The notes below the pieces were generated by a model. That model was given only the letters and a program-made list of their open reading frames with translations. It ran no database searches and had not been told where the DNA came from. Shown here piece after piece: positions 5,421 to 44,788 of a DNA stretch of 64,000 bases. Positions within the stretch are counted from its first letter, which is position 1. Each line of letters opens with the position of its first letter. The translations under genes and the position numbers were made by a program. Origin of the DNA: Chthonomonadaceae bacterium (GTDB taxonomy: Bacteria; Armatimonadota; Chthonomonadetes; Chthonomonadales; Chthonomonadaceae); NCBI GenBank assembly GCA_027459665.1, contig DAIDHN010000001.1, positions 1 to 64,000 on the forward strand, read 5' to 3'.

Positions 5421-6227
5421 CTAGATAATCCAGTGCGCCCCTTTGGGAGGAGTGTACTGGAACAGTGAATCTGGCACCGGCTTGTTTATGCGCACATCTT
5501 CCAGCACTTCCACCGTTCGCTCACGCGAGTTGGCCACCGGGATAACCACCTTGTGAAGCAGGTGCGTGTCGGCATTAAAATAGAGAACTGCGGGCGGGCT
5601 GTCGGGCACAAGCGGCGCGGAGAAGGTATCGTACTGCACCCCGCCTTCTTTCACCACCGTTGGGTTGGAAGCCTGTACCAGCGCACTTCTGACTGCGGGG
5701 TCGGCCAGCGGGCGGTTTTGCAGCATAAGAGCTACCAGGTAAGTGCCAACGGCATCGAAATTGACGCCGTTTACGATATCGATTTTGTTGAGAGATGAGG
5801 GCGCTGCTGTGCGGACATAGGTTTGATCCTGCCCGGAGAAGTTGATGAATACACTGCCGTTAGAGATGGCCGCCGTGGCAGAGCTGTCTTCAGAACGGTA
5901 GCAGAATTTGTTGGGGCGGTCTATTGCCAGTGTGTATGCCTTGTCCATCAGAATAGCATTTTGCGAGTTGCGCTCAATTACTTCTGCAGTATGCTGATAC
6001 GACTGCATTTTGCTGTATGCGGCAGTGGCCTCGTTCACAATAGCAGCTACGGCAGGCTTGATCGGCGCATTGTCGGGCACAGAAGCGGGCGAGGCGGCGA
6101 AATGCGGGGGGGCAGGAGGCGCGCCCTGTGCCTGCGCAGTGCAAAGCGAAGCGGCAAGAAACGCACACGACAGAGCCTGTGCAAGCAGAAGCCGGCCTGT
6201 AAACTGATTGTTGGAGTGGAAGCGCAT
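5421..6227 (-). CDS. Secreted DUF2092-family protein
   Basis: This is a 268-residue protein with a signal peptide (MRFHSNNQFTGRLLLAQALS, cleavage near AQA) and a mature domain with a 'YSKMQSYQHTAEVIERNSQN...DRPNKFCYRS...VFINFSGQDQTYV' pattern. That pattern is typical of DUF2092, a LolA-like antiparallel beta fold. It ends 'LFQYTPPKGAHWII', echoing 'MFTYTPPANA' of the next gene, so the two are tandem relatives. The start at 6227 is chosen because AAAGGGGA precedes it and the longer frame to 6341 has no signal-like N terminus. Function is unknown; a lipid-carrier-like or envelope role is only suggested by the fold. Confidence 0.72.
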   Translation of the reverse strand: MRFHSNNQFTGRLLLAQALSCAFLAASLCTAQAQGAPPAPPHFAASPASVPDNAPIKPAVAAIVNEATAAYSKMQSYQHTAEVIERNSQNAILMDKAYTLAIDRPNKFCYRSEDSSATAAISNGSVFINFSGQDQTYVRTAAPSSLNKIDIVNGVNFDAVGTYLVALMLQNRPLADPAVRSALVQASNPTVVKEGGVQYDTFSAPLVPDSPPAVLYFNADTHLLHKVVIPVANSRERTVEVLEDVRINKPVPDSLFQYTPPKGAHWII

Positions 6228-6321
6228 AAAGCAGAATCCCCTTTCTGCAGTAGAGCAAACTGCTGTTCTACAGAGATATGTTGACGCGGGGCTTTTGCCC
6301 GGTATGGCAGTACTATACGCA

Positions 6322-6558
6322 TTACACGTCGGTTTCATCACCAGTTTTAGCCATATAACGTTCGTATTTGGTCAGTTCTTCCTGTAGTAATGCATACATT
6401 TCAGGGCTGGCAGTTTGTGCATCCTGCAGGCATCCCCACAAATATTCGTAGCCTTCTATGGGGCAGCCTTCGGCGGCAAATTTTCTGGCGCGGGCGCCAA
6501 TTTTGTAAGCGGTTATGCGCCTGTACTCGCACGCGTTTTGAAGATTGTTCTGCGTCAC
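6322..6558 (-). CDS. Small protein of unknown function, 78 residues
   Basis: A GTG start at 6558 is preceded by GGAGGAATGAGG, which overlaps the stop codon of the gene upstream (6563), so translational coupling is likely. The protein is MTQNNLQNACEYRRI... ending YERYMAKTGDETDV. It has two cysteines in the body (ACEY, GCLQ) and is helical-looking; no family is recognised. An ATG further upstream (6693) would overlap the neighbouring gene by 130 nt and gives an implausible basic/acidic run, so it was not used. Confidence 0.55.
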   Translation of the reverse strand: MTQNNLQNACEYRRITAYKIGARARKFAAEGCPIEGYEYLWGCLQDAQTASPEMYALLQEELTKYERYMAKTGDETDV

Positions 6559-6562
6559 TGCC

Positions 6563-9500
6563 TCATTCCTCCGGCATACTGCCCGAGTCGTTTCGATTTC
6601 CCCGCCCCCTGCCTCCCCTTCTTCTTCTTCTCTTATTCCCCGCCTCTGTAGAATTTTCCTGCAGTATTTTCTGCACCAGTGCAGCAGAGGCAACGCGCTG
6701 TTCTTCGCTTTCCGGCAGAATCATCAGCTCTTCTTCCTCCATCAGCGGCAGCTCATCCATAGAGGGCATGGGCATTTGCAGCACTGCTCGCAGTATCTCC
6801 AGGTCGGGGTTTTCAGGGGCAGGCAGCGCAGGGTCATCCAGAAACAGATCAGGCAGCAGGGTAGCTGGCTCTGGCAGAATTGGTTCTGGTTCCGGCAGTG
6901 CATCATGCTCTGTTTCAGGCTGGAAGTGCAGCGCCGTGGGGAAGCCGAGGGTTTGCAGAACACCGGTGTAGCCTGCAAAAAACCGGTGGGTTGACCCCGC
7001 ATGTGCATAAAAGCGGTATTCGCGCTCATTGCCATTCTGGCCAGAAAGCACTGTATTGCGATGCGTAAGGTCATACAGAGGCGTGTATGCAGGCACGCGC
7101 AGTACCCGGTTTCCATCCTTGCAAATGTGCATTGTCAGCCAGCCGCAGCCTTCATCCAGCACGTCTTCTGCATCGCAGTATGTATGCACTCCTGCATACT
7201 GGCATATACCGCGCAGCAGCCCCGCAGTAAGCAGCGGTTCTCCTACAAAAATGCTTTTCCAGCCTGGCATTTCTTTTACCGCAACAGAAGGCAGGCCCGA
7301 ACCGTGGTACTCAGCCAGCGCCACAGCCTCAGTGTCTTCCACATAGAACGATGGATTGAGGCGTTCGCGTGTTCCATATTCCCTGTTGCCAAGCGAGCGG
7401 GTAATCGGGTGGTTGTTATCGAGAAAATGAGACCCTATGCGCGAATTCCAGGGCTGTTGGCGCAGCAGAATGCCTACTGTAGAGGTAGCTGTTTCCAGCA
7501 TGGAACCACTGCCTGCCGCGGGTTTCGCCTCGCAGACGGCAGGCGCATACAGCCACACCAGCGTTTTGCCCCCGTTGTGCAGCTTTTCTTGAATGGCCTG
7601 TTTTTGTGCCGCACTAATCTGAAACGGGGTAAGAAACAGGTAAAGCTTTGCGTCTGTTGGGAAGTGGGGATGCAGCAGATCATTTTGCAAATGAAAGCTG
7701 CAGCGTATGCCCGCACGCTGCAGGGTTTCGCGCATTTCTGTGGTGAAACGGGAAAAGAACGCCTCTCCGCGCTGTATGTGCAGCAGGCTTTCTTCATCGA
7801 AAATGGCAACTACCTCAGGCTGTTCTGCAGGCGAAGGGTTGGCAGAGCAGAGTACAAATTCATGAATATGCTGCCATATATCCGGGCTGTCGAGCCAGCC
7901 TTCTCCCCACAGGTCCATCCATTGAACAGCAGTTCTGTGCGCCAGCGCCCTGCCCATAGCGCGCGCATGCGCCTGATGTACAGCATACTGATCGGGCAAA
8001 CGCAAATTGAAGTCATTTGAGGTGTCTTCGGCAGAAAGCCAGGTGCGCGTATCGTCTTCAGACACCCAGAGTTTGCCATGCATCAGCACCGAGTCGATGG
8101 GTGCAGGAAAAGAGGCTGCCCCTCCCGGCTGCCTGTCACGGTAGGAAGGCGGCCCGCACAGCAGATCGATGTTTCTATCCTGCAGCAGTGCGCCCAGTGC
8201 AAGGTGACCGCTGTCTCCGTGAGAAAACTCCAGGGTATAGCCGTAGCACACCGAAACGAGGCACTGGTAATGAGAGGCGCGCTTGATTACCCTGGCCAGC
8301 CCTCTAATACGGCTGGCGGCAATGGCAGAGGTGTAGAGGGCGAAATCGGTGTACTGCCTTTCAGAGCGCGCCTCGTAAAATGCCTGGTTCGGGTCGGTTT
8401 TCAGGCGTGCGGGGGGTATTTCAACGGTATGAAACTGCACATCGGCGTCGCGCCATGCCGCGCGCAGTGCCACCACGCTGCCGCGGTATCGCTCTTTCAG
8501 CCATTCACGAAAGCCATCGCGGTTTGCTGTGCTTCGGTCTGCGCCGCCCGCTGCAGGTTGAAACCATTCGCCTCTTTCCAGATGAAAGCCAAACACCCGT
8601 TCTGCCCATTCACGGCTTCTAATATGCTCTACCAGGGTTTGGAGCGAGCTTTCGCATTCTTTCCAGAAGCGTTCGCTGGCCAGCGAAGGGTCTCCTCCAC
8701 TGTCGTCGGCATATACGCAGAGTTCCGCAGGGTTTTCACGCCGCCACCCGCGTGCGGGCACAAATACAATGCGAGGCATTACAAAACCATTTGGGTCTGC
8801 CTGCAGCAGGGTTTGCAGGCGGGCATCTATCTCTTGCAGTGCGCCCGAATTTTGTGGGAGGGGGCAGGTGAGTTCTACCAGGGTGGAATGGAGGTGTATG
8901 CCTGCCTGCGCAGCCATCTGCACCTGCCGCAAAACGCGTTCATGGTTTTCTTCTGCTTCGAGGTTGCCAAAAAAGAGTGCAGACGGATAGGGAACGCCAT
9001 GTATGTGAATAATCGGGATGCCTCTGTGCTGCAGCAGATGTGCGCCTCGCGAGGTATCTATCACGGGTTCCGGCTCTGGTTCCGGCGCAGACTGAGCCGC
9101 TAGTTTCTGGGGGCTTTGCGGTGCTGGCAGCGATGGCGCTTCCTTGCGCCCCCTGCTTCTGCGGTTTCTACGGCGCCGGGCGCCCGATGCGCTCTCCTGG
9201 GCAGCTGCCTCAGCTTCTGCGCCGGGCTGGGCTTCTGCTTCCGGTTCATCTGCAGAAACGGCTGCCTCGGCAGGCGCCGTTTTCGCTCTGCTGCTTTTTG
9301 AGCGCGACCTTCTGGTTTTTGCTTTCACCGTTTCGGCTGCGGTTTCTGCGTTGTCTATAGCAGATTCTTCAGCAGCAGGCAGTACTTCTGCGGCTTCCTG
9401 CGGTGCATCTGCCGGGGCAGGTTCTGGTACGGTTTTTTTGCGCGAGCGTGCAGGCTTCGGTTTTGAGGCAGGCGCAGCAGCCGCTTCTGTTTGCACAACG

Positions 9501-37236: not shown

Positions 37237-37545
37237 TTAGGCGGCATTTGGCCAGACCATCGCAGAATGGCGTAAAGCCTTGGGGCTTAGCCAACGTGAT
37301 CTTGCGGCTCGTGTTATGAAAGAGGACGTGCAGCCGTTCTCTCCAGAATATTTAAATGATCTTGAGAAAGATTGCCGTAACCCGCCATCCGACGATTTGA
37401 TGAGCAATTAACAACCGCCTTGACCATCGACGCAAACTTGCTCATTTTATATGCGGGAACCATTCCACCGGATATTCACAATGCTGACGTTCCGCCTGCA
37501 AAAGCTGTGGAAGCATTTACAGCGTTTCGCAGAACGACACATTAG
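37237..37545 (+). pseudogene. XRE-family (C-protein-like) regulator, no start codon and frameshifted
   Basis: Readable: FGQTIAEWRKALGLSQRDLA, ARVMKEDVQPFSPEYLNDLE, KDCRNPPSDDLMS, then a frame change near 37407, then LTTALTIDANLLILYAGTIPPDIHNADVPPAKAVEAFTAFRRTTH and TAG. This is a common stand-alone XRE family of about 100 residues. One missing base causes the TAA at 37409, and a TAG directly precedes the usual first codon, so no start remains. It sits 21 nt upstream of the methyltransferase-nuclease gene, the usual place of a restriction-modification control gene. Confidence 0.8.
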
Positions 37546-37566: not shown

Positions 37567-39657
37567 ATGACCATCGTACAGACTGCAAAACCTTGCCTTG
37601 TGGTTGCCCGGAATAGCTCCGCTTCGCCGGCAACCATAACCACGCCATTCCGTTTACTCGACCTCTTCACGGGAGCAGGTGGGCTGTCCTACGGCTTCGA
37701 ACTGGCCCGACGTTCGTGTGGATGCCCAATGTTCGACGTGGCTGCGGCGGTGGAAATGGACCACGCAGCCTGCGAATCGCTCCGAGCGAATCATGCTTCC
37801 CATCCTGCTAAGCATGCGTTCCCGGTTATTGAGAGCGACCTGACGCTAGCGGCAACTCACAAATATGTCCTCGATCGGATTGGGGGATCTCAAATTGATC
37901 TAATGATAGGTGGACCGCCCTGCCAGTCCTACTCCCAGATCGGAACGCGTACGGGGCGTTGGATAAACGACGAGCGCTTTCAGGATGACAGTCGCGATAG
38001 GTTATTTGAGGAGTATGTTGCACTGGTGAGAGAACTGCTACCGCGGTTCGTGGTGCTTGAGAACGTGGATGGCATTCGGAGTAAGAAGAACGCGTATGGC
38101 GAGCCTTTCCTGTCGGTCATCATTCGCAGTCTAGAAGAACTCGGGTATTCGTTTCGCATTGTTGGCTCGCCTGAGCGAAAGTACCTGCGACTAAATGCTG
38201 CCTCGTACGGCGTTCCGCAAGTGCGCAACCGCATATTCCTGGTTGGAAATCGGCTAGGACTCGATCTCATTCCGCCTCCTCCCACGCATTACGATCCAAC
38301 CACTTCGATCGGTAAGCGGAGCCCGTCGGCTCGGTGGCCGTGGCTCACCGTCTTTGATGCGATCGGCGACCTTCCTCCAGTCCTTGCCCATTACACGAAG
38401 ACCCACATGTCACCGGAACAATGGCGCTACTACAACGCCCAGAACGCCAAACGTAATGAAGGAGCCGACGAGGTTCCGTACCATCTTGAGCGCTTCCACG
38501 CCCACTACGAACAGCTTAGCCCGGCGGGTAAGGCATTCCTCGACTTCGTGAAGGCTGCCCCCGGAGAGCCACTCCGATACCACCGAGCTCGGAACCAGCA
38601 GCTATCAGAAGGAGTAAACGGTATGGAACATCTCAAGCGGGATGCAACGCGATTCGAGGTCTATGACACGGCCCACGCTGTGGCGCAGCAAAACGGGCTC
38701 ACATTCGTTGGAAAGGACGAACTAAAACAGGTTGTTCAGCATATGGAACAATCCCTGTTAAAGGAGACTCAAAATCCTGCAATGTACTATGGACTCCTCA
38801 ACGAAGCCAGGTTCAGCTATGTTGCTGCGGCATTAGGAAAAACTGTTGTCGTCAAGCGGGAGGATGCCGGGACGGTAATTTCCTCTAATACAACCATGAA
38901 AGTGCCTGATTACCGCTTAGTTGTAGCTGGAGGCGACGAGTTTTTCGTTGAAGTAAAAAATAAATACGAAAAACTGCCCAAGGTTCAACACACCTTCACG
39001 GACGCCTATTTCTCATCGCTGGAAGCCTACGCGGCAGCCTTCAGCCGTCCTTTGAAATTTGCAATTTATTGGTCGCCCTTAAATTTATGGACGCTGATTT
39101 CCGCTGACAAGTTGCCTTTTCGGAACGGCAAGCGTGCTATCGGCGTTCTTGAAGCAGCAAAAATCAACGAAATGGCTATTTTGGGGGATATGACGATAGC
39201 CACAAAGGTTCCCCTAACCTTACGGTTGTTATCTGATACGGCCGAACCTTCGACCCTATCTGCGGAAGGCGAGGCACGTTTCAAGATCGGGGGAGTAGAA
39301 CTATTTTGTGATGGCGAACGCCTAAGCGGTGAGGACTGCAAATTAGCCTGGTACATGATGCTCTACGGCCAATGGTCGGAACTTAACCAGATTCCCTACA
39401 TGGACGGTAAACGCCTTATCGCTTTAGACTACATCATTTCCCCCGAGGTGTGGGAACCGAAACAGGGCTTTGCAATTATAGGCCAATTGAGCGGAATGAT
39501 CTCCCGTCAGTTCCAACAACATACTGACCCCGATGGCAAACAAAAACTGATCCGTCCATTAGCGGAACCAGGGAAATTTGGCATTTCTATACCTGACGGT
39601 TACAAAAGCGATCGCCTTCCTCTTTGGCGCTTTACAATCGAGCCCAATTATGCATGA
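37567..39657 (+). CDS. Chimeric protein: C5-cytosine DNA methyltransferase N-terminal half fused to PD-(D/E)XK nuclease-like domain
   Basis: This is a 696-residue protein. Residues 28-230 carry C5-methyltransferase motifs: LLDLFTGAGGLSYGF (motif I), IGGPPCQSYSQ with catalytic Cys119 (IV), LENVDG (VI) and YGVPQVRNRIFLVG (VIII). Residues about 240-360 resemble the start of a target-recognition region. Motifs IX and X (the GNAVPP block completing the SAM pocket) are absent. From about residue 364 a different domain begins: E413 in NEARFSYVAAALG, D448 in MKVPDYRLVVAGG and E462-K464 in FFVEVKNKYE give a PD-(D/E)XK pattern. It may be a genuine fused restriction system, or a deletion chimera of adjacent M and R genes. 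Methylation activity is doubtful; nuclease activity is possible. A terminator follows. Confidence 0.75.
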   Translation: MTIVQTAKPCLVVARNSSASPATITTPFRLLDLFTGAGGLSYGFELARRSCGCPMFDVAAAVEMDHAACESLRANHASHPAKHAFPVIESDLTLAATHKYVLDRIGGSQIDLMIGGPPCQSYSQIGTRTGRWINDERFQDDSRDRLFEEYVALVRELLPRFVVLENVDGIRSKKNAYGEPFLSVIIRSLEELGYSFRIVGSPERKYLRLNAASYGVPQVRNRIFLVGNRLGLDLIPPPPTHYDPTTSIGKRSPSARWPWLTVFDAIGDLPPVLAHYTKTHMSPEQWRYYNAQNAKRNEGADEVPYHLERFHAHYEQLSPAGKAFLDFVKAAPGEPLRYHRARNQQLSEGVNGMEHLKRDATRFEVYDTAHAVAQQNGLTFVGKDELKQVVQHMEQSLLKETQNPAMYYGLLNEARFSYVAAALGKTVVVKREDAGTVISSNTTMKVPDYRLVVAGGDEFFVEVKNKYEKLPKVQHTFTDAYFSSLEAYAAAFSRPLKFAIYWSPLNLWTLISADKLPFRNGKRAIGVLEAAKINEMAILGDMTIATKVPLTLRLLSDTAEPSTLSAEGEARFKIGGVELFCDGERLSGEDCKLAWYMMLYGQWSELNQIPYMDGKRLIALDYIISPEVWEPKQGFAIIGQLSGMISRQFQQHTDPDGKQKLIRPLAEPGKFGISIPDGYKSDRLPLWRFTIEPNYA

Positions 39658-39686: not shown

Positions 39687-39722
39687 AAAGCCGCCGCGTC
39701 GCGTGACGTGGCGGCTTTTTAT
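39687..39722 (+). terminator. Intrinsic terminator after the methyltransferase-nuclease gene
   Basis: AAAAGCCGCC-G-CGTC, loop GCGT, GACG-T-GGCGGCTTTTT: a 13-14 bp stem with a T tract. Confidence 0.85.
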
Positions 39723-40031: not shown

Positions 40032-40781
40032 TTGAACATCTGGGCATACGTAGATGGTTTCAATCTGTACAACGGCGCGCTCAAAAATACGCAGCATAAA
40101 TGGCTAGACCTGCATCGGCTGATGGAGCGTCTGCGCCCGACCGACGAGATTGGAAGGGTGAAATTCTTTACCGCACAAGTGGATGCGCGTCACAACGATC
40201 CGGATCAGCCGAAGCGTCAACGTCTTTATTGGCGAGCGTTACGAACTCTTCCCACATTGGAGATCGTCGAAGGGCATTTCCTCACCAAATCGACCACCTT
40301 GCCAACCACGGGTTCGATCGATGAAATCAAAAGGTTAAAACGTGCAGGGCAGCCAACTGCCGGCGCGAAAGTGGATTGGGTAAGTGTCTATCGTTCAGAA
40401 GAAAAAGGCACGGACGTCAATCTTGCCGTTCATTTGGTTCACGACGCCCATTTGAATCGCTTTGATGCCGCAATTGTAGTGTCAAATGACTCTGACCTCG
40501 CAGGTGCAATCCGAATCGTTACCAAAGAGATCGGTAAACCGGTATTTGTCTTCTACCCCCATAGCTCGTCCCCTAGTCATGAACTTCGTAATGTGGCAAC
40601 ACGTTTTAAGGAAGTCGCGCCCGGGAACCTTGAGACGAGCCAGTTACCGTCATCTCTAACGGATGCAAGAGGAAACTTTAGTAAGCCGCCACAATGGTCG
40701 GTCAGAATTGCAGCCCGCCCGCCGTTACGACAGCGAAGGAGGCTGGAGCGAGGTCGCCCTCCTCTCCAGCCTCCTCTATGA
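40032..40781 (+). CDS. NYN (PIN-like) domain ribonuclease
   Basis: This is a 249-residue protein from a TTG start. YVDGFNLYNGALK (first catalytic Asp), KVDWVSVYRSEEKGTDVNLAVHLVHDA (conserved Glu and Asp) and AIVVSNDSDLAGAIRIV (DSDL metal site) are the NYN signature, so a metal-dependent RNase is expected. After the usual family end near PQWS, about 30 residues of basic/Pro-rich sequence (RQRRRLERGRPPLQ) follow, encoded across an inverted repeat, suggesting stop-codon loss. Its setting (strong promoter, hairpin leader, next to a nuclease gene) fits a defence or toxin role, but no antitoxin was identified. Confidence 0.85.
   Translation: MNIWAYVDGFNLYNGALKNTQHKWLDLHRLMERLRPTDEIGRVKFFTAQVDARHNDPDQPKRQRLYWRALRTLPTLEIVEGHFLTKSTTLPTTGSIDEIKRLKRAGQPTAGAKVDWVSVYRSEEKGTDVNLAVHLVHDAHLNRFDAAIVVSNDSDLAGAIRIVTKEIGKPVFVFYPHSSSPSHELRNVATRFKEVAPGNLETSQLPSSLTDARGNFSKPPQWSVRIAARPPLRQRRRLERGRPPLQPPL
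40737..40775. terminator. Inverted repeat between convergent NYN and DUF899 genes
   Basis: AGGAGGCTGGAG (40737-40748) and CTCCAGCCTCCT (40764-40775) form a perfect 12-bp repeat with a 15-nt loop. It is probably a bidirectional terminator although no T tract follows. It lies inside the last codons of the NYN frame. Confidence 0.5.
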
Positions 40782-42611: not shown

Positions 42612-43808
42612 ATGGACGAGCAGGAACAAGACACAGATAAGTCCTATAAAAAGCTGTTGGGCTATTTCAAGCAAGATGTTCTTGCAAGCTATAAGAGCCA
42701 ACCGGACAAATATGTAGTTGAGACAGACTTCTTTGAAGGTCGCATTAGGCTGACAAAGGATTATGCTGCTGAGTTAATTAAGCTCGACAACACACAAGAG
42801 ATGATCGATGTACGGTTCGGTTACCGCACTCTAAAAAGCGGCGAACTTGCGATTGCCGCATATATGCCCGACTTAGTGGGCAATCCTGGAGGACCTAGAT
42901 CCCAGGCACATCAAGATGTTTGGCTGGGCTTTCTAATCGAATCACCTGAGTGGACAGCAGAACTGGATGATCGCTTTAGTCTCTGGGTACAAAGATATGT
43001 TGAGGGTGATTGGAATGTAGAGAACGGCCCATTGCGACAACTGGAAGACGTAATCCAGACGATCAGCGCGTTAACCGCTAAAGAATTAGGATGCTCGCTA
43101 TTTAAGTTTCCGAAAAATCCTGCCTTGAATTTTCCATCGGCTCAAAATACCCATCAATATCAAGACGCCCATCGAGAACTATATGGATATGTGATAGATG
43201 GCCTAGACAAGTCATGCATAGACCAGGTCGCATCTCGGGCAGGCGGCGCACAAAAATCCAGTGGTAAAATGACCGTTCAGGCTTTGCAGCAAGCCTTACC
43301 ACAGATGCCCTCAACAAGGCTATGGCGAGCATTGGAAACCGTCAGCGAACAACGCATAAAAGCCGTACACGCGGTTCGTCCCGCCGCGACAAAGTTCCAA
43401 GCATTTGAGCAGTTCAACCAGGACGTCGAAGCTGTACTTGACGGGCTGCGAGACCTATTAACCCATTTAGAAGGAGTACTGAATATGAATGGCGAGCGCG
43501 CAAGAGAGAGGCAGACAGCTCAGAGTGGCTTGCCAAAGATCGACCAGAATCCGGACCGCGCGCCGATGGAAAATTACTCTATCAACCAGATCCAGCGGGC
43601 CGTAGGCAAGACAATAGAACGGGTGGAGTTCGGATTTGAAGAGCGGATCCAAGAGGTTCATGAAAGTGAAGTAATCATCTTACACTTTACGGACGGTTCA
43701 GTTTTAGGTATTTCAACAGGATCGAATTCCGTAAACCTTTCTTCCGAGTATCAAGGGTTACAACCCGAGGACTTTCATGTTGACTTTATGTTGCACTGGT
43801 TCCCGTAG
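42612..43808 (+). CDS. Protein of unknown function, 398 residues
   Basis: I do not recognise a family. The protein is acidic and soluble, with an N-terminal part (SYKKLLGYFKQDVLASYKSQPDKYVVETDFFEG...IDVRFGYRTLKSGELAIAAYMPDL), a helical middle (DLLTHLEGVLNMNGERARERQTAQ) and a C-terminal beta domain INQIQRAVGKTIERVEFGFEE...EVIILHFTDGSVLGISTGSN. The C-terminal block has the look of a small ligand-binding or repeat domain. GAGAGGGG precedes the ATG loosely. The lower GC and accessory setting suggest acquisition, possibly a defence gene; this is speculation. Confidence 0.7.
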   Translation: MDEQEQDTDKSYKKLLGYFKQDVLASYKSQPDKYVVETDFFEGRIRLTKDYAAELIKLDNTQEMIDVRFGYRTLKSGELAIAAYMPDLVGNPGGPRSQAHQDVWLGFLIESPEWTAELDDRFSLWVQRYVEGDWNVENGPLRQLEDVIQTISALTAKELGCSLFKFPKNPALNFPSAQNTHQYQDAHRELYGYVIDGLDKSCIDQVASRAGGAQKSSGKMTVQALQQALPQMPSTRLWRALETVSEQRIKAVHAVRPAATKFQAFEQFNQDVEAVLDGLRDLLTHLEGVLNMNGERARERQTAQSGLPKIDQNPDRAPMENYSINQIQRAVGKTIERVEFGFEERIQEVHESEVIILHFTDGSVLGISTGSNSVNLSSEYQGLQPEDFHVDFMLHWFP

Positions 43809-43979: not shown

Positions 43980-44011
43980 TGTTTAGTAAATGATGCCCGA
44001 AGGAGAACAGA

Positions 44012-44055
44012 ATGTTGATCGGCTACGCCAGAGTTTCCACCCAGGACCAGAACCC
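44012..44055 (+). pseudogene. Serine recombinase (resolvase/invertase) N-terminal fragment
   Basis: ATG 44012 with AGGAGA upstream reads MLIGYARVSTQDQNP, the invariant resolvase N terminus with the catalytic Ser (ARVST). After 14-15 codons, sequence switches abruptly to antisense hip-locus sequence, so only the stub remains. It marks the edge of a rearrangement. Confidence 0.85.
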
Positions 44056-44372
44056 TCCTCCTGCTTGCGGGTCAGCACCTCACGTGCCTTTTGGTTGCGA
44101 AAGTCGACAAGAGTAGAGGAATATATGCTCTCACTATCCAGGAGCCTTGCTACCTCGTCAGGGGAAATGCATGCGTCTAAATCTTCAAAGAGACGAAGCG
44201 CAGGATCGAGAAGTTGGGAATAACCGCTTTTTAGCCAGACAGGATCGTATGCGAACGCGAAGATCTCCCTGGCGCGAGCGGGCGTGACGGTGAGCGCTCC
44301 CAACACGGTCGCCTTGTCCAACCCCTCCCAGTCCGCCCAGACCTGAATGCTCCGTTGGACTGGCGGCCTCAT
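44056..44372 (-). pseudogene. Truncated HipA-like toxin remnant
   Basis: Overlapping the hipB-like stop, MRPPVQRSIQVWADWEGLDK, then ATVLGALTVTPARAREIFAFAYDPVWLKSG...LLDPALRLF matches the HipA N-terminal beta domain (IQVWAD...G.L......G.E.FSFEYD..WL). After about residue 65 (ISPDEVARLLDSESIYSSTLVDFRNQKAREVL) the family match ends, and the kinase core is missing. The frame then runs into the antisense of the resolvase stub. It is a dead toxin fragment. Confidence 0.65.
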
Positions 44373-44716
44373 GATGCCTCCGGCCCGGTCACAGCCTCCG
44401 AGGTCGCATCGGCGGCCTGCTTACGGCGTGGGGCGCGGCGCTTTACGGTGAGGTCGGCATCCTGAAGTTTCCGGCCCAGTTCATCGTCGTGGGCCAGTCT
44501 GTCCAGGTCCTGCTCCAATCCCAGGCAGAAGAGAACGCTGGCGTACGCGCCAAACGACACGGCAGGGTCCCCGCGCTCGATCGCCTGCAGCGTGGGGCGA
44601 GTGATACCGGCGCGCTCGGCAACCTGCGCGGCGGAGAGTTTTCGCCGCAGCCGGGCCAGGCGCAGGTTCTCTCCCACAGCGGTCAAGCGGCGCTGCAGGG
44701 AGGGTAAGAGTGTCAT
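44369..44716 (-). CDS. HipB-like XRE antitoxin/repressor
   Basis: This is a 115-residue protein from ATG 44716. RRLTAVGENLRLARLRRKLSAAQVAERAGITRPTLQAIERGD is a clear XRE helix-turn-helix. The C-terminal half (KLQDADLTVKRRAPRRKQAADATSEA) is basic and flexible. A second ATG at 44731 lies within the operator arm and is less likely as start. It overlaps the hipA-like remnant by 4 nt (ATGA), the usual hipBA coupling. It probably represses its own promoter. Confidence 0.85.
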   Translation of the reverse strand: MTLLPSLQRRLTAVGENLRLARLRRKLSAAQVAERAGITRPTLQAIERGDPAVSFGAYASVLFCLGLEQDLDRLAHDDELGRKLQDADLTVKRRAPRRKQAADATSEAVTGPEAS

Positions 44717-44728
44717 CGCATTTCGTCC

Positions 44729-44788
44729 CATAATGAAAAATACTATACCATTAATTGGGCTATATTGCAAATTCTATTTTTCATTATG
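44729..44788. promoter_or_regulatory. Inverted-repeat operator flanking the hipB-like promoter
   Basis: CATAATGAAAAATA (44729-44742) and TATTTTTCATTATG (44775-44788) are perfect 14-bp inverted repeats 32 nt apart, one at the start codon side and the other upstream of the -35. This is a layout expected of an autoregulated HipB-type repressor that loops or bends the promoter. Confidence 0.7.
44742..44770 (-). promoter_or_regulatory. Promoter of the hipB-like gene
   Basis: On the minus strand TTGCAA (44770-44765), a 17-nt spacer and TATAGT (44747-44742). Confidence 0.6.

Follow-up and report, generated by a model that had tools for sequence, protein, structure and literature searches.

A rearrangement, most simply a deletion, very probably fused a truncated C5-cytosine DNA methyltransferase gene to an unrelated stand-alone nuclease gene in the window (the whole 64,000-nucleotide stretch of Chthonomonadaceae bacterium contig DAIDHN010000001.1 that was analysed). 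The product is a single open frame of 696 codons on the forward strand (37567-39657), with no internal stop or frameshift in its methyltransferase part. The first-pass annotation had described C5-methyltransferase motifs I, IV, VI and VIII followed by a PD-(D/E)XK region, with motifs IX and X absent, and this description was confirmed. The features of the locus are:

37241..37408, forward strand: remnant of an XRE-type helix-turn-helix (HTH) regulator (PF01381 HTH_3, E 1.6e-6, 28.5 bits, cut-off 23), preceded by an in-frame stop and without a start of its own
37396..37545, forward strand: probable continuation of the HTH regulator in another frame after a frameshift, closed by a stop codon and weakly similar (E 0.06) to a helix-turn-helix regulator
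37567..38610, forward strand: truncated C5-cytosine methyltransferase, residues 1-348, carrying motifs I-VIII and the first part of the target-recognition region
38602..38622, forward strand: join, with methyltransferase homology up to residue 348 and nuclease homology from Met353
38607..38614, forward strand: putative Shine-Dalgarno-like AGAAGGAG, 8 nt before the ATG at 38623, proposed from the sequence
38623..39657, forward strand: PD-(D/E)XK nuclease gene of the stand-alone type, 344 aa, recognised from end-to-end homologues, conservation, a model and a match to the Hjc fold
38803 (E413), 38908 (D448), 38950 (E462) and 38956 (K464), forward strand: catalytic codons of the nuclease, from position and conservation
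39697..39720, forward strand: terminator-like hairpin 3' of the open reading frame, a weak call (five such sites found against 3.9 expected)

The methyltransferase half and the seam

The first half shares with the C5-cytosine DNA methyltransferases (PF00145, Dcm/HhaI/HaeIII type) motifs I, IV (GGPPCQS), VI (ENV) and VIII (QVRNR), as well as the Rossmann core, but the window protein, unlike them, ends inside the variable region, without motif IX or X. The presence of motifs I, IV with its catalytic Cys (Cys119, codon 37921-37923), VI and VIII was borne out by Pfam and by pairwise alignments with two complete relatives found in viral contigs, L135 and L054. PF00145 was matched over residues 28-305 and profile positions 1-228 of 324 (E 5.7e-39), indicating that the last 96 positions, which hold motifs IX-X, are missing. 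L135 (478 aa) is 51% identical over residues 13-348 and L054 (440 aa) is 38% identical over residues 29-348, and residue 348 was the last aligned position for both. The two relatives run on for more than 120 residues past this point, with motif IX (VREAARIQSFPDD, PREAARIQSFPDD) and motif X (RQIGNAVPP); in the L135 tail, motif IX is VREAARIQSFPDDY and motif X is FRQIGNAVPPLLA, and the L054 tail is alike. The shared stop, together with the longer tails of the relatives, places the truncation point at residue 348 and indicates a loss of roughly 120-135 codons from the 3' end of the window gene; the absence of motifs IX and X claimed at first pass therefore stands, since the Pfam match stops short and the full-length relatives carry both.

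In the structural model of this half, the Rossmann core (residues 27-250) was confident and the rest was poor, with pLDDT of 28-60 in most blocks, which fits a stump that lacks the small domain and motif X. In the multiple alignment A6 the end of this half was pulled out across the columns of motif IX, and the A6 model had a pLDDT of only 28-56 there. Structural ranges reaching the motif IX part of HhaI were for that reason set aside, and the pairwise alignments with L135 and L054 were used as evidence instead. A stump whose SAM pocket lacks its motif X part, and from which most of the DNA-reading domain is gone, is very probably no working methyltransferase; this half is probably inactive, and its methylation would have been lost. 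A reading of the translations by eye places the complete relative in the L054 contig (1500-4900) between a Vsr-like ORF, which it directly follows, and an ORF resembling a GHKL-type ATPase.

The methyltransferase homology ceases at most 12 nt from the nuclease start codon. The switch between the halves, initially put at about residue 364, was accordingly moved to residues 349-353 (nt 38611-38625), following the homology limits of both halves. The ATG at 38623 is preceded by AGAAGGAG, suggesting that the nuclease gene can be translated from a start signal of its own. Across the join the GC content falls from about 0.58 to about 0.49, and the contrast in codon texture remarked on earlier is real, with GC at codon positions 1/2/3 of 0.64/0.46/0.60 in the N half and a lower 0.55/0.39/0.51 in the C half. 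Repeats marking an excision or insertion were looked for at the seam and none were found.

Directly upstream of the long frame, an HTH regulator pseudogene (37241-37545, forward strand) is spread over two frames, and the whole locus has the look of a methyltransferase cassette in decay. This neighbour also bears on whether two contigs or strains were wrongly joined at the seam during assembly, as the compositional shift and the draft state of the genome (118 contigs) might suggest. Such an artefact is very improbable, however, given that the join is exactly in frame and falls within a 21-nt interval beside a ribosome-binding site, that the decay of the adjoining HTH gene fits a real process of decay, and that the contamination estimate is 0.04.

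Other genes were observed downstream in the window. An NYN-domain protein is encoded at 40032-40781 on the forward strand (Pfam NYN, E 1.1e-11; PADLOC candidate defence model HEC-09, E 2e-41), and a 398-aa protein at 42612-43808, also on the forward strand, had no match in Pfam, NCBIfam or PADLOC. On the reverse strand, 43983-44770 holds a 133-aa HTH protein and then a 129-aa ORF without Pfam match, a pair that by eye resembles a HipB-like regulator and a HipA-type fragment.

The nuclease half and its stand-alone relatives

Residues 353-696 were matched by 42 plasmid records with at least 80% of their length covered, at 11 loci in GTDB genomes, at 8 loci in viral contigs and in 2 records of E. 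coli phage PhiR11_1. The genome-locus search was run with a 5-member alignment, an 11-member alignment being too diverse, and single-protein pattern scans with either half retrieved no relatives, so that alignments were needed. The homologues include a family annotated as 'hypothetical protein' on Providencia, Proteus and Rhizobium plasmids and in PhiR11_1, with end-to-end homology at about 30-40% identity; there, in contrast to the window, the protein has a gene to itself, usually coding for about 345-358 aa, with no in-frame methyltransferase before it. When the full 696-aa protein was the query, the closest matches started at residue 350 or 353. The stand-alone relatives as a whole, from plasmids, prophages and chromosomes, open with M[KE]R[IL]-x-R-N/D-P. 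Most have about 340-358 aa and the longest 393, and the stretches that extend them upstream in frame are short and never a methyltransferase. The two halves of the window gene are thus of separate ancestry.

No C5-methyltransferase ORF was present near the nuclease relatives in the loci examined, for which about 6 kb were fetched per side, and no homologue of the C half was present in 134 other loci, mostly methyltransferase loci. The first-pass annotation had reasoned that a C half found alone beside complete methyltransferases would favour a deletion chimera; the half does occur alone, but beside a C5 methyltransferase in no relative examined. Its proposal that a deletion had joined adjacent methyltransferase and restriction genes in frame was consequently kept for the in-frame joining of two genes, which the separate full-length relatives and the position of the seam at the nuclease start codon support, and abandoned for the nuclease as the cognate restriction gene.

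The C half belongs to a PD-(D/E)XK family that can be recognised although it has no name. E413, D448, E462 and K464 lie where they had first been placed and are conserved in the family, in which they correspond to E61, D96, E110 and K112 of alignments A1 and A3; in alignments of 11 and 12 members, D448 and E462 were invariant, E413 nearly invariant, and K464 invariant or nearly so. The nuclease model, built from 12 sequences, had a mean pLDDT of 87.0 and a pTM of 0.84. VIA-align gave Archaeoglobus Hjc (2wcw) as the best match (Z 13.9, rmsd 2.4, 121 aligned), covering model residues 55-192, with the C-terminal 150 barely probed; other Hjc structures came next, the SPARDA nuclease domain and RecU lower, and Foldseek agreed. 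Both hallmarks of the superfamily were therefore found, the acidic residues and E-x-K in order and the core alpha-beta nuclease fold, and the half shares this core and the catalytic E/D/ExK order with Hjc, RecU and the SPARDA nuclease domain. It differs from Hjc in having about 50 extra residues before the core and about 150 after it, which form helical N-terminal and beta-rich C-terminal additions around the Hjc-like core; sequence similarity to Hjc is marginal, and the half is known here from its sequence and a model.

Sequence libraries returned marginal matches only, to Hjc or to phage Holliday-junction-resolvase models. The window protein had no Hjc match at all, and one relative reached only E 0.003-0.004, short of the curated cut-off. 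PADLOC assigned no family to any of the 12 members tested, and none of Pfam, NCBIfam, PHROGs and PADLOC recognised the family convincingly. No description of this family, or of a methyltransferase-nuclease fusion of this sort, was found in the literature.

The plasmid relatives are located in variable regions with differing neighbours. In three phage contigs the nuclease gene is single and lies between conserved phage genes, one of which looks tape-measure-like by eye. Stand-alone relatives are the single cargo gene of an E. coli phage (L032, 2003-5859) and of three related prophage contigs (L036, L037 and L040, around 6001-7050), and these four are candidates for phage defence. No conserved partner gene was detected beyond closely related plasmid or phage backbones. 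Their occurrence as single cargo on plasmids and phages makes a single-gene nuclease cargo with a role in defence or competition the likeliest, and the nuclease probably serves mobile elements as a DNA-cutting factor, encoded by one gene, for defence or competition.

The fused architecture was absent from all plasmids, phages, viral contigs and genomes searched, although its recurrence in unrelated genomes had been proposed as the mark of a true fusion family. No plasmid or phage record covered 80% of the 696 aa. With cut-offs of E 0.001-1e-10 for the C half and of 1e-35 for the N half, 100 relatives and 291 genomes of the phylum gave neither half outside this genome; the other C5 methyltransferases of the phylum resembled the N half much less (best E 5e-27). 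Both catalytic sets are intact within one uninterrupted 696-codon frame, as they would be in a genuine family of single-chain restriction-modification enzymes combining a C5-methyltransferase half devoid of motifs IX-X with a PD-(D/E)XK half. The lack of recurrence, and a seam that lies both where the similarity to a complete relative breaks off and at the start codon of the stand-alone relatives, leave such a family with little credence. We consider it similarly doubtful that the fusion is functional in another sense, with a truncated methyltransferase that no longer methylates and still binds DNA, steering the attached nuclease; if true, this would be a newly born single-chain DNA-targeting nuclease.

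The missing tail and the origin of the joined frame

A precedent for a methyltransferase cut inside the variable region is M.AquI, which is split there and carries motifs IX-X in its smaller subunit (PMC3404938); in this genome, by contrast, no small subunit with motifs IX-X was found, and the stump runs into a nuclease. No motif-X-like GN[AS] block occurred near the gene in any of the six frames of the window, the L054 tail with motifs IX-X matched nothing in the window or the rest of the genome (best E 0.18), and PF00145 was detected in the genome at this locus only, the draft being 99.86% complete. These results do not support trans complementation of the M.AquI type, and a split enzyme whose distal variable region and motifs IX-X are encoded elsewhere is the least probable explanation. 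The single-chain restriction system complemented in trans that had been envisaged at first pass is likewise unsupported: the architecture recurred nowhere in the collections searched, and no motif IX-X piece was found in the draft genome.

Under the favoured reading, a deletion would have taken away the final quarter of a once complete C5 methyltransferase gene, with motifs IX and X and the remainder of the target-recognition domain, along with whatever lay behind that gene. The stump would then have been joined, at most 12 nt before its start codon, to the unrelated nuclease gene, in a frame that chance alone would preserve in 1 of 3 cases. Such a deletion would have left the ribosome-binding site and start codon of the nuclease in place, and translation most likely still begins at the ATG at 38623, our presumed internal start, possibly with some 696-aa run-on product. 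Insertion or recombination could have led to the same product. No close relative showing the ancestral arrangement was found, as no sampled genome of the family or phylum has either half closely, and it is for this reason that we only infer the deletion. Weighing against this reading, the 696-codon frame is clean; either the event was recent or selection has kept the frame.

As judged from its sequence, the nuclease half appears intact, keeping a ribosome-binding site, a start codon, full length and the catalytic residues, and it probably works on its own.

The locus is best seen as ordinary gene decay next to a member of this unnamed PD-(D/E)XK family. It serves as a caution that gene decay can leave an intact 696-codon frame with two sets of catalytic motifs, an ORF that automatic annotation could label a fused restriction enzyme. 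If any item is worth following, it is the nuclease family itself, whose members travel singly as cargo of conjugative plasmids and prophages and have a conserved Hjc-like active site.
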